This document shows positions 2-43,249 of a DNA stretch of 64,000 nucleotides, in pieces (positions within the stretch are counted from its first letter, which is position 1; each line of letters begins with the position of its first letter). The DNA is from Candidatus Aminicenantota bacterium. Its GTDB lineage: Bacteria; Acidobacteriota; Aminicenantia; UBA2199. The DNA is taken from assembly GCA_026393835.1 (NCBI GenBank), contig JAPKZK010000103.1, positions 1 through 64,000 of the forward strand, in the 5' to 3' direction. A program made the position numbers and the translations under genes. The notes below the pieces were generated by a model, which saw only the letters and a list, made by a program, of their open reading frames with translations, was not told where the DNA came from and did not search any database.

Positions 2-11440
<11,439 letters not shown>

Positions 11441-11470: not shown

Positions 11471-14400
11471 ATGACGATGCAAAATAATACGTTTTATGAC
11501 GATCTGGAACTTTCAGGAGAAGAGAGCGCCATATTGGCCAGGATATTAAAGGGCGAATTAGACGGCAATTTCGGGCAAGATAAGATTCGCCCCCGCGACG
11601 TTTTTTCTCCCGTCCTGCAGTCTTTTTCCCAACAGCGGTTATGGATATTGGACAGGTTGGTTCCCGGCAGCGCCTTTTATAATTTACCTTCCGCCATACG
11701 TATAAAGGGCCCATTGGATGCCGGCGTATTGGAACGCAGCCTTAATGAAGTGATACGTCGCCATGAGTCCCTTCGAACCGTGTTTTCCATGGTGGACGAG
11801 GAACCCATGCAGGTGATTCTGCCGCGATTAAAATTAACGGTAACCCTTATCGATTTGGGTGCGTTATCCACGGCGGAGCAGGATTCTGAAGTATCGCGGC
11901 GGTTGGCAGAAGAGGCGCGGACCCCGTTCGATCTCCAGCGGGGACCTTTGCTGCGGGTGATTTTACTGCACCTGGGCGAGCACCATCATGTACTGCTGCA
12001 AAACATGCACCATATTATTTCCGATACCTGGTCCATGGGGTTATTTATCAAAGAGTTATCGGTAATTCACGCCGCTTTTTCCGGGGGCGGCCCCTCACCT
12101 TTACTTCCACCCGGGCTTCAATATGGCGATTATGCCGTGTGGCAGCGGCAGCGGCTGAAAGGGGAAACGCTGGAAAAACAACTGTCGTATTGGCGGGAAT
12201 TGCTCAGCGGCGATTTACCCATCCTGGAACTGCCCACCGACCGGCAGCGGCCGGCCGTCTCCACTTACCGCGGCGGAATCCGCTCCTTTACAATCCCCGA
12301 ACCCCTGACCGCCAAACTCCTGGACCTGGACCGCCAGGAAAATTCCAGCCTTTTTATGATCTTGCTGACCGCCTTTAATGTCCTTCTTTGCCGCTATTCC
12401 GGCCAGGAAGATATCCTGGTGGGTTCCCCCATTGCTAACCGGAACCGGGCCGAATTGGAAGAGATTATCGGTTTTTTTGCCAACACCCTGGTTTATCGGA
12501 CCGACCTGTCCGGGAACCCTACCTTTCGCCGGTTGTTGGCCCAGGTCCGCGACATGACCACCCGCGCTTACGATAACCAGGATATTCCTTTCGAGAAATT
12601 GGTGGAAGAACTTCAACCCCAGCGGTTCATGAGTCATAACCCCCTGTTCCAGGTAATGTTCGTGCTGCAAAACGCGCCCCGGCATACCATCGATGTCGGC
12701 AGCCTGAACATTGAACACTTAGCCGCCCACTCCGGGACCTCCAAATTTGACTTATGGCTGTCCGTAATCCAGTTTGAAAGAACCATGGGGCTCACCTTCG
12801 AGTATAGTTACGACATTTTCAACGACAGTACCGTTACCCGGCTTGCCGGTCATTTCCTGGCGCTGTTGGAAGCCATTACCCGCGATGCCGGCTGCTGCAT
12901 CCACCAGTTGGAAATCCTTCCCGAAGAAGAAAAGAGACGGTTGTTGATCGATTTTAACTACACGGATGCGGAATATCCCCGGGGCAAAACCCTCCATCAA
13001 TTATTCGCGGAACAGGCTGAAAAGTCGCCGGATCATATATCCCTGGTAGGGGCAACCGCTGTAGAGACGTTGCGCGCAACGTCTCTACAAATCCAAATAA
13101 CCTACCGTCAATTGAACCGGCAATCCAATCGATTGGGCGGGTTGTTAATCGAAAAGGGCGTCGCACCCGATACCATTGTGGCCGTTATGCTGGAACGGTC
13201 CATCGAGATGGTAATGGCGCTAATGGCCATATTAAAAGCCGGCGGCGCGTATCTGCCCATCGATCCCGATTACCCGCAAGAACGCATCGATTACATGTTG
13301 AAAGACAGTGCAGTCAAAATCCTATTAACCGCAAATGAAATATCTTCGCTTTCAACGGAGTGTGTTTTTAATTCTCATCATTCATCATTCATCATTCATC
13401 ATTCAAATCATCTTTCTTACCTCATCTACACTTCCGGTTCTACCGGCGAGCCCAAGGGGGCGATGATTTCCCATGAAGGGATTGTCAACCGGTTGCATTG
13501 GATGCAGGAGGCATTTTGTTTGAACTGCGCTGACCGCGTATTGCAGAAGACCCCATATAGTTTCGATGTATCCGTATGGGAATTTTTCTGGCCTTTGCTG
13601 AACGGCGCCGGCCTGGTGATGGCTGTACCCGGCGGCCATAAGGATTGTGCGTACCTGGTACAGGCCATTATTGGCGAAAAAATAACCACCATCCATTTTG
13701 TACCGTCCGCGCTGCAAGTGTTTTTAGAGGAACCCGGGGTGTCCGCCATTACTTCATTGAAACGGGTAATTTGCAGCGGCGAGGCACTGCCCCTCGAATA
13801 CCAGGAACGTTTTTTTGCAATATTTGCTAAGGTGGAATTGCATAACCTTTATGGACCCACCGAAGCCTCCGTCGATGTAACTGCCTGGAGTTGTGAACGA
13901 AATTCCGACCGGCATATGGTTCCCATCGGCGGGCCCATTGCCAATACACAAATATATATACTGGATAAAAACTTACAACCCGTACCCATCGGCGTCCACG
14001 GCGAACTGTATATCGGCGGCATCCAACTGGCCAGGGGATACATCAACCGCCCGGAATTAACGGCAGAGAGATTTAAATTTAATAGGTCCTATAGGTCCTA
14101 TAAGACCTATATTCTCTACAAAACCGGGGACCTGGTTCGGTGGCAGGAGGACGGGGCCATCGAGTTTCTCGGTCGGTTGGATTTCCAGGTCAAGGTTCGG
14201 GGGTTTCGGATTGAATTGGGGGAGATCGAAACGCGGTTAAGAGAACATCACGCCGTCCACGACGCCGTGGTGCTGACTGCCGGCGGCGACGGCAAAGACG
14301 GCGACACCGGGAACAAGAAATTAACGGCCTACGTCGTTCCCCGCCGCGCAGGGACCGATTTACCCGGAGACCAGGTGGGCGATTGGGAAGGCGTATTCGA

Positions 14401-32962: not shown

Positions 32963-33304
32963 GTTTCCTCCTTTTTAGGATGTTTGTATTTACTTTATAA
33001 CATTATAAAAAAAAAAAATAAAGCGAATATCTTAAAAAAATATTCTTTGACTGACCAAAGGGGGCGCTTTTATAAAAGCGCCCCCTTTGGAATCCCCCGC
33101 AAAATTTTTGATAAGTTAACTAATAAAAGTTTTGTGGGGTTCAGGGGCGGTTTCTCAAAATGGGGCGGCGCCCCAAACCTCCTTGCACGGCCCTGGGGTT
33201 TTCCTTCTTTGAAGGCAGCGTCTCAAATCCTTGTTTTTTTTGCGTCCTTTTTGACCGTTCTTCGTCTCCTTTGTTAGAAATTAAAAATCAAAAGGAGATG
33301 AATC
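32963..33304. other. Gene-free stretch with a large palindrome and decayed repeat
   Basis: It holds a perfect 36-bp palindrome at 33055-33090, followed by sequence (AATTTTTGATAAGTTAAC, then AAAGTTTTGTGGGGTTCAGG) that resembles the flank of the hairpin at 56302-56345. An AAAAGGAGATG ribosome binding site for the permease closes the region. I see no gene here. Confidence 0.6.
33055..33090. repeat. Perfect 36-bp palindrome
   Basis: The arm CCAAAGGGGGCGCTTTTA is followed directly by its exact complement. It could act as a bidirectional terminator, but it has no U-run. It more likely belongs to the dispersed palindromic element family seen elsewhere in the window. Confidence 0.85.
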
Positions 33305-35240: not shown

Positions 35241-35280
35241 GGGCCTAAAGTCCCGTTTTTAAGAAAGGGACTTTAGGCCC
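35241..35280. repeat. Perfect hairpin upstream of a secreted-protein gene
   Basis: GGGCCTAAAGTCCC and its complement flank a 12-base loop. The stem is too far from any U-run for a standard terminator. It is likely a member of the dispersed palindromic repeat family. Confidence 0.8.
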
Positions 35281-35333: not shown

Positions 35334-35840
35334 ATGACGATATTTAAAAAAGAAAATGGATTTAAACAGTTTTTAGCTTTGCTGGTGGTGCTTACACTTA
35401 TTTGCCCCGGCGTTCTTTCCGCCCAGAAAAATAGGCATGGGGCCTGGCTAAAAGTTACAAAACAGGACATGCAAGTGGAGGGCGAGCTTCTTAAAGTGAG
35501 CGACAGCGATATACTATTGATGTCTAAATCGGAAACCGGGATTACGATACCCCTGACTGAGATCAGGATGATCGAATATAAAAAGAAGGGGAAATTTGGA
35601 ACCGGGTTTGCCGTAGGACTAGGTCTTTCAATGCTTGTCTTTTCAAGCTGTAACCTGGGAATGCATGGATATGACTTAGACTCTCTTCTGATCGGAGGCA
35701 TAATTGGGGTTCCCGTTGGTCTTCTCTTTGGAATTTTAGATTCTCAAACTGTAAGACAGAAGGCTTACGGTTTTCGAAATGTGACGAAGCAACAAGCTTC
35801 AAAAAATCTTGAGAAATTAAAAGCCCTGGCCCGTTTTTAA
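35334..35840 (+). CDS. Small exported or membrane protein of unknown function
   Basis: The 168-residue protein has a signal peptide (LALLVVLTLICPGVLSA), then a small beta-rich domain (VEGELLKVSDSDILLMSK, ITIPLTEIRMIEYKKKG), and one or two glycine-rich hydrophobic helices (FGTGFAVGLGLSMLVF, LLIGGIIGVPVGLLFGIL). AAAGGAGG precedes the ATG. I do not recognise a named family. It lies directly before the first 21-bp repeat array. Confidence 0.7.
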   Translation: MTIFKKENGFKQFLALLVVLTLICPGVLSAQKNRHGAWLKVTKQDMQVEGELLKVSDSDILLMSKSETGITIPLTEIRMIEYKKKGKFGTGFAVGLGLSMLVFSSCNLGMHGYDLDSLLIGGIIGVPVGLLFGILDSQTVRQKAYGFRNVTKQQASKNLEKLKALARF

Positions 35841-35880
35841 GAAAGCACGAAATCCGAAATTCAAATTGGGCAATTCGATT

Positions 35881-36755
35881 GATCTTAGCACGTGCAAGAG
35901 GTGTTTTAGCATGCGCATCCGGTGTTTTAGCGCATGCAACTAGTGTTTTAGCACGTGCAAGTGGCGTTTCAGCGTGTGCAAGAGGTGTTTTAGCGCGTGC
36001 AGGTGGTGTTTTAGCACGCGCATCCGGTGTTTTAGCGTGTGCAACTGGTGTTTTAGCACGTGCAAGAGGTGTTTTAGCGCGTGCAACCCTCGAGTTCGCA
36101 CGTGCAAGTGTCGAGTTAGCGCGTGCAACCCTCGAGTTCGCACGTGCAAGTGTCGAGTTAGCACGTGCAACCATCGAGTTTGCACGTGCAAGTGTCGAGT
36201 TAGCATCTGCAGGCGTCGAGTTAGCACGTGCAACCATCGAGTTTGCACGTACAAGTGTCGAGTTAGCATCTGCAGGCGTCGAGTTAGCACGTGCAACCCT
36301 CGAGTTCGCACTTACAGGCGTCGAGTTTGCACGTGCAGGGGGCGAGTTCGCACTTACAGGCGTCGAGTTTGCACGTGCAGGTGTCGGGTTTGCACGTGCA
36401 GGTGTCGAGTTTGCACGTGCAACCCTCGAGTTCGCATGTGCAGGTGGTGAGATCGCATGCGCAAATGCCGGGATCGCACGTGCGAGTGACCAGATCGCAT
36501 ATGCAAGTGGTGAGATCGCATGTGCAAGTGTCGAGATCGCATCTGCAGATCGACTATCCACATTTACAGCGCCATCATCCGCAAATACAAGTGGCGTGCT
36601 TGAATCCGCGCGCGCCGGGAATGAATAGGCCGGGATCGAATTTAATCCTGCATGACCTGGGAATAACTACGCAAGTATCTAGTTTTAAAATGCGGGAGCC
36701 GTTAATTAACGCGCCTGTGTCTCATTTGAAAATGCAGGAGCCGGGAATGGATGCG
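35881..36755. repeat. 21-bp periodic tandem array 1 (about 41 units, no indels)
   Basis: Degenerate units of exactly 21 bases run from 35881 to about 36755 without a single insertion or deletion. Each unit has a spacer such as TGTTTTA or CGAGTTA, a nine-base core GCACGTGCA, and a 5-base variable part. The core mostly varies by transitions that keep strict purine-pyrimidine alternation (GCATGCGCA, GCGTGTGCA, GCGCGTGCA). The last nine units are more diverged. Long frames are open on both strands (249, 332 and 155 codons) and translate as heptads such as E-F-A-R-A-S-V. Openness in several frames suggests none is selected as protein. Confidence 0.9.
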
Positions 36756-36804
36756 TAGGTGGCAGTAAGGGTAGTAAGAGACAGTCAAAAAAAATTTCAC
36801 GCCT

Positions 36805-39364: not shown

Positions 39365-39736
39365 ATGATAATACAAAATGATCTTTTTTTCAATTGCTGT
39401 GACGAGTTGGCGCGTGCACTCCTCGAGTATGCACGTGCAGGTGTCGAGTTCATACGAGCAAAAGGAAAATTACTTGTGTGCCCTTTTAACTTCCATAAAG
39501 GGAGTAAATATATTATCGAAACAAAAGTCAATCGTCAATCCAATATAACCCGTATGCTGAGCCAGGGGATCGCGCAAGTAACCGGGAAATACCTGGCTTC
39601 GGAATTCTACCGTGAAGGTTATCTTGTAATCTTCGATACGAAAACGCGTGTAGGTGAAACATGCGAACCCCGGTACTACCCGGTAGGGGATAAGAAAGTG
39701 ACTACGCTCATCATTGGCATCGGACGAGACGATTAA
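39365..39736 (+). pseudogene. Nuclease-domain fragment fused to array-1 repeat units
   Basis: The C-terminal half (KYIIETKVNRQSNI, then YREGYLVIFDTK) resembles the PD-(D/E)XK nuclease tail of AAA-ATPase-like proteins, with the E-x-K core. The upstream ATPase part is missing. Instead residues 15-35 (ALLEYARAGVEFIRAKG) are encoded by about two and a half units of the 21-bp array-1 repeat (39408-39460). I read this as a rearranged gene remnant with its breakpoint at the repeat. Whether it is expressed is unknown. Confidence 0.6.
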
Positions 39737-39813: not shown

Positions 39814-40128
39814 TTAGATTTCGATACCTGTGCGCTTTATTTCACCCAGAAGCCCATAAGAAGGTTCTTCCGCATATTCATATGAAGAGAAAACCACAGT
39901 CTCAATCCTGGGGTCAATGTGCACGGCAATGGGGGCAATGTTAAGCATCGAGGAAAAATTGTCCTGCATATTGTCGGCGATGATACATACATCAATATCG
40001 CTGTCACCTGAGAAATTTCCTTTCGCATAAGAACCGAAAAGAAACATCCGTTTGATAGCCAACCCCGGAAGCAGTCGGCGCTTCAATCGATGAATTGCCT
40101 GGATTATTTCATGAGGGACTTGAGCCAT
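39814..40128 (-). CDS. Nucleotidyltransferase-domain (MNT) protein
   Basis: The 104-residue protein has the full minimal nucleotidyltransferase motif GSYAKGNFSGDSDIDV. Such proteins normally pair with a HEPN partner. None with a start codon is visible next to it, although an open stretch upstream (about 40130-40200, - strand) could be the remains of one. It may be an orphan antitoxin. Confidence 0.82.
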   Translation of the reverse strand: MAQVPHEIIQAIHRLKRRLLPGLAIKRMFLFGSYAKGNFSGDSDIDVCIIADNMQDNFSSMLNIAPIAVHIDPRIETVVFSSYEYAEEPSYGLLGEIKRTGIEI

Positions 40129-40595: not shown

Positions 40596-42341
40596 TTACC
40601 CTTCTTTGACGGTTACATTCTTTCCTTCAAAAACCACGGCCAATTTCTTAATCTTTTTTATTCCCCTTTCCTTCAATTCGGTTTCGTATTTTTTTTCTTT
40701 GATTTGTTTAAGAGCAGATTTAGCGGCGGATTTCACGGATTCGTTTTTCCCGGTTTTTTTAAACTCCATGACTATACCCCATTGGGAAAGGTCCCGGGGG
40801 ATAATCATAATATCGTAACGTCCGTAACCCGATTCCCGGTTGGATTTGATTTCATGGGTATTGGCAATCCAGGTGAGCATACCGGCCACCAGGGCATGAT
40901 ACACCTTTTCCGGCTCGCCGCTGAAATCATGATAACTGAACACCGCCGCCACCACCTTTTGCAGCATTTCTTCAAAAAGTTCGGTATTGCCTTCCACCAA
41001 CGCCTGGAGCATGATTTCCAGGCGCTTGTTTTCTATTTTCGATGAAAAATATCGCCGGACAATCCGTATATAGGTGTTTTTTACTTCCAGGTTCGGGATA
41101 CAAAGGTTATAAAGCATTTTGTTGGATGCCGCGTCTCTTCTTTTGACGGTATGTTTCAGGTATCCCCCCATCAACAGGAAACTCCACAGCAAATCTTCAT
41201 CAATGCCGACATCTTTAAGCACGATGTTTTCATCGATGGCTTTTTCAATCGTTTCTCCCCTGATCAGTATTTCCAGTTCTTCCTTGAGTTCTTTTCCCCC
41301 TTTGGACAATAGGTCCTCGATGATTTCGTTATCCGAGGTATTGATCCAGTAAGGTTTTAATTCCTTTGCCCGGCTGTCTAAGAAGCTGGTGATGGACCAG
41401 GGATTGTAAATAATGCGTCCGCCGAAATTGTAGCCGTTATACCATTGTTTTACATCGTCATACCTATCCAATAGGTCGAAATCTTTTAGTATCGTCTCGA
41501 CTTCCGGTTCGGTGAACCCGAATTTATCGTTGAACTCTTCCGCCAGGAGTGTAAACACGCCCGGGTTGTTGAGGCCGGAGAAGATGGATTCCTGGGCAAT
41601 GCGCATAATCCCGGTAATAACAGCTTTTTCCAGGTATTCGCCGGTATCTTTCAGCCCCCCGCAAAGGAAATTTCGTGTGAAACCGATGATTTCCTTATAA
41701 TATTGGTTGGTAAAACCGGCATGTACCGGGGCATCGTATTCATCGATCAAGATAACGGCCTTTTTACCATAATAACGGCTTAAAAAAATAAGCAGCTTTT
41801 CCAGGCTGTTCTCATAATCCCCCAGGGATCCTTTTAGATCGATGATCCGCTGGAAATAATCTCTCTCGTGCGGCATAAGTTCTTTGCTTTCAAGAAGATA
41901 GTAATGCCTGGCATACTCTCCCTGGATAAGCGATTGTATCTTACCCAGGCAGGTTTCCCAGTCAGGTTCTTTGATGTTTTTAAAGGTAAGAAAAATGACC
42001 GGGTGTTTGCCCATTTTTCCCAGGTATAGGGGGCCTGCCTCGGCGATGGCCAGGGAAGAGAATAAACTTTTATAAGTATTACCGGGGGTAACCGGTTTAC
42101 TGCCCGCGGCCGGAGTATCCGGGACCAGCGGTAAGTTTTCCGGGCAGCAGTCATAAAAGTATTTCAACATGGAGATATTGAGGGTCTTCCCGAACCGCCG
42201 GGGCCGGGGGACCAGGATAACCCGGTTGCCCCTGTCGATAATTTCCTTGATAAAAAGGGATTTATCGACATAATAGTAGTTCCCGGTTATTATATTCTTA
42301 AAATCGGATTCTCCGACAGAAAATTGTTTCATACTCATCAT
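40596..42341 (-). CDS. AAA-ATPase-like / PD-(D/E)XK nuclease protein (PF09820/PF08011 type)
   Basis: The 581-residue protein opens with the AAA-ATPase-like signature FSVGESDFKNIITGNYYYVD and a variant Walker A RPRRFGKTLNISML. Walker B is KKAVILIDEYDAPVHAGF. The C-terminal nuclease-like domain has YGRYDIMIIPRD and IVMEFKKTGK (D...ExK). Such proteins occur in large paralogous sets in anaerobes and are of unproven function; defence or mobile-element roles have been proposed. A second, diverged member lies at 51059-52642. Confidence 0.85.
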   Translation of the reverse strand: MMSMKQFSVGESDFKNIITGNYYYVDKSLFIKEIIDRGNRVILVPRPRRFGKTLNISMLKYFYDCCPENLPLVPDTPAAGSKPVTPGNTYKSLFSSLAIAEAGPLYLGKMGKHPVIFLTFKNIKEPDWETCLGKIQSLIQGEYARHYYLLESKELMPHERDYFQRIIDLKGSLGDYENSLEKLLIFLSRYYGKKAVILIDEYDAPVHAGFTNQYYKEIIGFTRNFLCGGLKDTGEYLEKAVITGIMRIAQESIFSGLNNPGVFTLLAEEFNDKFGFTEPEVETILKDFDLLDRYDDVKQWYNGYNFGGRIIYNPWSITSFLDSRAKELKPYWINTSDNEIIEDLLSKGGKELKEELEILIRGETIEKAIDENIVLKDVGIDEDLLWSFLLMGGYLKHTVKRRDAASNKMLYNLCIPNLEVKNTYIRIVRRYFSSKIENKRLEIMLQALVEGNTELFEEMLQKVVAAVFSYHDFSGEPEKVYHALVAGMLTWIANTHEIKSNRESGYGRYDIMIIPRDLSQWGIVMEFKKTGKNESVKSAAKSALKQIKEKKYETELKERGIKKIKKLAVVFEGKNVTVKEG

Positions 42342-42430
42342 CGTTTACCATTTGAAGTATAACATATTGGTAAAGAGAATTCAAATTTTCTAATCTTTTA
42401 ATAATCAAAAGCTTTAGGCTGGATTTGGTA

Positions 42431-43249
42431 GATGCGTGATCGCATGAAAATGAGGCAATGTCGGTTCTTGAAGATGGATCAATGCAAGAAAAAGAGGCGG
42501 CATCGGTTCTTAAGGATGGTTTATCGCATGTTGATGAGGCGACGTTGGCTCCCGGGGATGCGTGATTGGGTGAGATCGATGCATATTTTCGTCTAAGGGA
42601 TACAAAATTGCTATAGCCGGATGAAAAATTGTCTCCCAGGGATGTAAAATTTCATGAGCGGGATGGAAAATCGGGTCATTGAAATGAAAAATTGCCTGGG
42701 AGGGACCAAAATTTGTCTCCTGGGGATGGTATTTTTCATAGAGGTGAGGTGATTTTTGGTCTCCGGGATGGTTCATCGCATGAAGAGGAGGCGACGTTGG
42801 TTCTTGAGGATGCGTGATCGCTTGATGTGGATGCATATATGCATCCATGGGACAAAAAATCGCTTGAGCCGGATGAAAAATTGTCTCAAAGGGATGCAAA
42901 ATTCCATGAGGAGAACCAAAATTTGTCTCCCTGGGATGGTATTTTTCATGAAGATGAGGCGATTTTTGCTATCGAGGATGGTTCATCGCATGAAGAGGAG
43001 GCGACGTCGGTTCTTGAAGATGCGTGATCGCTTGATGCGGATGCAAATTTGCATCCAGGGGACACAAAATTGCTTGAGCCGAATGAAAATTTGTCTCGAC
43101 AGGACAAAAAATTGTCTCGACGAGATAGAAAATTGCCTCGGCTTGACCAAAATTTTTATTGAGGGAATGAAAAATTCCCTGGACCGGATGGAAATTGGTT
43201 CGATGGGATAGAAAATTGCCTGGGATGGACCCATCATTTGCCCAATCAT
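42431..43249. repeat. 21-bp periodic tandem array 2 (39 units, A-tract phased)
   Basis: Exactly 39 units of 21 bases run from 42431 to 43249 with no indel. A common unit begins GATG, then AAAATTG or AAAATTT, then TCTC and a purine-rich end. A-tracts therefore recur every two helical turns. A higher-order repeat of ten units (210 bp) is visible: the unit at 42767 is identical to that at 42977 and neighbours match. The frame beginning with the GAT codon contains repeated TGA stops (in GATGCGTGATCG units), while other frames on both strands stay open by chance. The sequence differs from array 1 but the period is the same. Confidence 0.9.

Follow-up and report, generated by a model that had tools for sequence, protein, structure and literature searches.

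The array that opens at position 35886 of the window (the whole stretch of DNA analysed here, 64,000 nucleotides) raises the question of why units that have diverged in sequence all keep a length of exactly 21 bp. Our preferred reading, to which we give a probability of roughly 60%, is that this is a non-coding minisatellite lying between genes, one member of a class spread across the genome in which units of any sequence keep a length of 21 bp (sometimes 42 bp). Arrays of this class consist of head-to-tail units, are non-coding, lie between genes and change in copy number between relatives. The unit length of tandem repeats is usually regarded as accidental. One length shared by nearly all intergenic minisatellites, with sequences that differ, points to a testable physical rule of copying or retention.

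Structure of the array in the window

Laid out in register, 32 clear 21-bp units occupy 35886-36557 without an indel, and decayed units continue in unchanged register to about 36767. The earlier note's figure of about 41 units over 870 bp holds only if this decayed end is counted. Its exact, indel-free period was confirmed by TRF (period 21 and 0% indels, along with 42- and 63-bp higher-order periods) and by a circular-profile Viterbi alignment, which covers 714 bp (35885-36598) with 24% mismatch to the consensus and 0 indels. Identity at lag 21 is 0.748, compared to 0.26 in a typical base shuffle and 0.307 in the highest of 2000. Identity at lag 7 is at background (0.24 vs 0.24), thus a 7-bp unit was not identified. 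At 36614-36761, period 42 outweighs 21 (0.63 vs 0.38). The similarity of units drops with distance, from 0.75-0.78 at 21-63 bp to about 0.64 at 336 bp, and three linker types follow one another around the core with unit length constant (Table 1). Comparisons were made with G003, a congener labelled Acidobacteriota, in which contig C768 is identical to JAUPLE010000453.

Table 1. Positions and character of the arrays and adjoining features (window coordinates, except for the loci in the last row).
Feature	Position	Strand	Description	Basis
Array block 1	35886..36074	.	nine units; core mostly GCRYGTGCA; linker ...GGTGTTTTA	units in register
Array block 2	36075..36431	.	17 units; linkers CCCTCGAGTTC / GTGTCGAGTTA and relatives; 42-/63-bp higher-order repeats	TRF, register
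Array block 3	36432..36557	.	six units; linkers ...GGTGAGATC and relatives	units in register
Decayed tail	36558..36767	.	21/42-bp register kept; resembles tail of G003:C768 array	
Left flank	35827..35883	+	95% identical to G003 L214:339-395	
Short fragment of the array's unit family	39403..39461	+	about three units; 80% identity to the array	
Second array, same class	42414..43241	.	42/21-bp units; unit sequence unrelated to the first array	
Arrays without the search pattern	L295, L298, L305, L307, L312		period 21	

Several other identities were considered for this locus. A CRISPR array was rejected, as the 21-bp units are continuous and no unique spacers lie between them. An assembly artefact is unlikely, because diverged units reappear in a second MAG (G003) and 21-bp arrays are also present in foreign genomes. 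No DNA match to phage or plasmid was found, and such an origin was dropped. The best Rfam score for the array (25.8 bits) is below the gathering score of 60, and a structured RNA of known family was therefore rejected. Upstream of gene 35334, a near-perfect inverted repeat (CTAAAGTCCC...GGGACTTTAG) is located at 35241-35280; it occurs at two further places in G003.

Arrays across the genome, a congener and other phyla

Relatives of the array were identified at about ten other places in its own genome (8.2 Mb) and in G003; the core pattern has one match in G001 and none in the remaining relatives searched. A census run without any motif on 858 kb of this genome identified 32 regions of period 21 and 30 of period 42, along with 16 of 7 bp and 0-3 for every other period up to 60. 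Sorted by location in 1.01 Mb, the basic periods of intergenic arrays are 21 (33), 42 (5), 7 (13) and 22 (1). Period 20 was detected three times, each time weakly (two arrays of low identity and one with higher identity at 21). Repeats inside genes are mostly 66-126 bp and mostly of coding type. That 21 and 42 dominate between genes bears out the earlier suggestion that an exact two-turn period reflects a constraint. One 42-bp array (C149:89940) has no 21-bp residue. Scaled from 28 arrays per 858 kb, the estimate for the genome is roughly 270 arrays, i.e., a few hundred. Only two or three arrays have a lag-7 identity above background, and an origin from 7-bp repeats was rejected. In the window itself, perfect or near-perfect 7-bp repeats (TCATCAT/TTCATCA) are present at 2779-2809, 4548-4577, 7545-7574 and 13375-13405, within two giant NRPS/PKS reading frames; the translation at these repeats reads HHSSFIIHHS.

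The unit sequences are diverse. Loosely, 26 of 52 unit profiles chain into one superfamily (TGCAnnTGCA-like), and about 14 unit families are dissimilar to it and lack its core, with the period equal. What is constant across the class is unit length, not sequence. Beyond the genus, a pattern scan of 84,980 genomes returned 21-bp arrays in MAGs of Acidobacteriota and Verrucomicrobiota. In four of these (the acidobacterial SZAS-13 and gp7, and two verrucomicrobial MAGs, one of Akkermansia and one of Verrucomicrobiaceae; ~370 kb), arrays outside the search pattern are also 21 bp, and apart from 21 the basic periods are limited to 7, 12 and 129; the sample is small, and reaching these genomes via a 21-bp pattern biases the choice of genome, not of their other arrays.

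Between the congeners, copy number, presence and place of arrays vary and unit length is constant. The left-flank homology with G003 ends two bases ahead of the first repeat, at a site that has no array. On G003:C445 a fragment of the 37704 gene comes immediately after the orthologue of gene 35334-35840, again with no array between. G003 in turn has an array immediately following its counterpart of gene 39814-40128 (L215 2809-3122, unit ATCTCCAnnGATnAAAAGTTA), and the window has none at that place. The homologue of the second array in Table 1 is at another place in G003 (L212:932-1239), not next to gene 40596-42341. The orthologous arrays C98:1682 and G003:C481 have a common flank and common proximal units, and comprise ~6-8 vs ~25 units, all of 21 bp. 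Decayed tails are common to different loci, including the window array and that of G003:C768. Homologous arrays in relatives, to which the earlier note had pointed as a check, thus vary in copy number and keep 21 bp, and free variation of unit length was not found.

Synteny breaks between G000 and G003 coincide with array edges (L212 932, L187 3088; window 42418-42432), and the arrays may be rearrangement points. Two further repeated elements were observed in this comparison: a dispersed repeat of roughly 100-140 bp (33117-33254; >20 copies in G003, mostly at 76-93% identity), and the AAA-ATPase-like/PDDEXK_9 gene family of gene 40596-42341 (>15 copies in G003).

Across 28 arrays we counted 10 indels (a single 42/43-bp array contributes 4) against ~870 nearest-unit substitutions or 2654 mismatches to consensus, vs 13 indels per 379 substitutions in ordinary intergenic G000-G003 alignments. 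These counts suggest a depletion of indels in arrays of roughly 3- to 9-fold, as read with a gap-penalised profile aligner, which may miss paired or edge indels. The flank-tail pair C98:1682 / G003:C481 contains one 2-bp indel event, a count not below that of ordinary intergenic DNA; thus, selection on phase is unsupported at that pair. Among the intergenic tandem duplications listed (length of at least 15 bp, identity of ~90% or more), those up to 45 bp measure 21 or 42 bp, with two exceptions (one of 16 bp, the other of 33 bp).

Origin of the 21-bp length

We propose that copy number would rise and fall through slippage in replication or through unequal exchange in register, and that blocks of array could spread to further loci. 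The length would stay at 21 bp because shifts other than by two whole turns of the helix (2 x 10.5 bp) either arise with difficulty or do not survive. Slippage or exchange in register agrees with the higher-order repeats, with arrays homogenised in the core and decayed at the edges, and with the recent 21- and 42-bp duplications. The number 21 may be explained by descent with register-bound homogenisation or by a helical rule in formation or retention, and both may act. The unrelated unit families and the foreign genomes favour a helical rule, and the superfamily favours descent.

The helical rule, in its broadest form, is a tentative proposal: some process that gauges length by the helix, be it replisome slippage, template switching or repair, and that works only in two-turn steps would yield or keep 21-bp units of any sequence, and the intergenic minisatellites of Acidobacteriota and Verrucomicrobiota would follow a 21-bp clock. 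Were helical phase the only factor, arrays of 31/32 or 52/53 bp would also be possible; none occurred, which counts against the rule. A bias toward 21 at formation is something we infer, no array having been caught at birth. Putative services to the cell include supercoil buffering, gene spacing and a scaffold for nucleoid proteins.

It is possible, if rather doubtful, that inheritance is sufficient and that no helical measure is involved. One ancestral 21-bp array would have been copied around, its sequence turned over by concerted evolution and its length kept since indel-bearing units leave the register and cannot spread. The placing of half of the array profiles in one superfamily argues for this, and it also weighs against our preferred reading, as the common period is partly plain descent. 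The succession of linker types at equal length, the fall of unit similarity with distance, and the decayed tails common to several loci point the same way. Inheritance alone is at odds with the families that have no similarity to the superfamily and with 21-bp arrays of unrelated units in Verrucomicrobiota and other Acidobacteriota MAGs.

We consider it unlikely that selection for a DNA-level role has kept the arrays, locus by locus, as binding sites in helical phase or as segments prone to form Z-DNA, as the earlier note had proposed. Exact two-turn spacing, the alternation and transition bias of the core, and the excess dyad symmetry of units are in its favour. Strict purine-pyrimidine alternation of the nine-base core, which that note had taken to be conserved, is present in 27 of the 32 units of the window array; the common GCATTTGCA and GCACTTGCA cores disrupt alternation even inside the TGCACGTGC-type family. 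Core differences are mostly transitions (25 transitions to 5 transversions, vs 42:78 in the linker; Fisher p=2e-6, for units that share ancestry), with p=0.11 when only distinct variants are counted, and the core is perfectly palindromic in just 15/32 units. Dyad symmetry of units exceeds column-permuted controls (11/33 at p<0.05; combined p=6e-9 over arrays that are partly related), an excess that also speaks for our preferred reading; in keeping with it, the window array is predicted to fold strongly (z -6 and -8). Across the class, significant alternation was found in 14/33 arrays, mainly of TGCACGTGC type; it is present in most units of the window-array family and missing from most other families. 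Since length is constant and unit sequences are wholly different between families, neither Z-DNA nor a binding site for one protein explains the class, and the earlier idea of Z-DNA or a core-reading protein is not supported as a general explanation. Three further observations count against selected sites. Counterpart loci are array-less, and placement relative to genes and promoters is without bias (divergent in 10/26; expected 30-33%), for which reason promoter-directed placement was also rejected. As a third point, the 10.5-bp A/T harmonic is absent from units (harmonic 2 of 0.052 vs 0.051 +/- 0.008 when permuted), and an array of curved DNA was rejected on this basis.

The window array is non-coding, and the idea of a repeated heptapeptide protein (e.g., the 249-aa frame at 35879-36628) is already contradicted and very improbable. 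Several frames do remain open, two of them within the array itself, the 3-bp harmonic of unit composition is slightly above control (0.071 vs 0.051 +/- 0.007), and there is a weak sub-threshold Pfam OEP match. However, the six frames score from -0.57 to +0.03 per codon on gene codon usage, vs a gene median of 0.24 and a 5th percentile of 0.105 (genes were called with our own codon-score script). This bears out the earlier note's view that the array is not coding. A synonymous bias, which the earlier note held would speak for coding, was looked for as codon-phase bias in substitutions across the 21 columns and was absent from 33 arrays (combined p=0.73). Pfam and NCBIfam searches of the frames returned nothing above cut-off, a 2-bp difference shifts the frame between the orthologues C98:1682 and G003:C481, and differences in the orthologous-array flank, read by eye, are mostly non-synonymous. 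Given the low codon scores, the lack of third-position bias and the lack of a Pfam or NCBIfam family, coding in any frame was rejected.

Comparison with known repeat systems

The class resembles bacterial minisatellites and VNTR loci in its tandem units, its higher-order repeats and the difference in copy number between relatives. VNTR loci, as generally described, have many unit lengths within one genome, whereas here nearly all intergenic arrays outside the 7-bp class are 21 or 42. Like REP and BIME elements, the arrays are intergenic, dispersed and often palindromic; REPs of one genome are alike in sequence and are not known to form head-to-tail arrays with a fixed period. Helically spaced direct repeats are shared with iteron and partition-site arrays, which occupy one or a few loci per replicon and use one motif, whereas here there are an estimated few hundred loci and many motifs. 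The literature covered, which was partial, contains nothing direct on 21-bp intergenic arrays or a 21-bp lock.

The best-described prokaryotic class with a dominant period is that of the heptanucleotide tandem repeats, the abundant 7-bp intergenic class of the SPADE survey (PMC6344855), for which slippage with a polymerase footprint was proposed in the case of TAACTGA repeats (PMC4679880). The arrays described here are likewise intergenic and non-coding with one dominant period, 7-bp arrays are common in this genome, and 21 is 3 x 7. They differ in having a 21-bp unit, much greater divergence, mostly no 7-bp sub-period, and many unit families. A lock at 21 bp would also bear on why the 7-bp class is the dominant one among prokaryotic repeats (PMC6344855).
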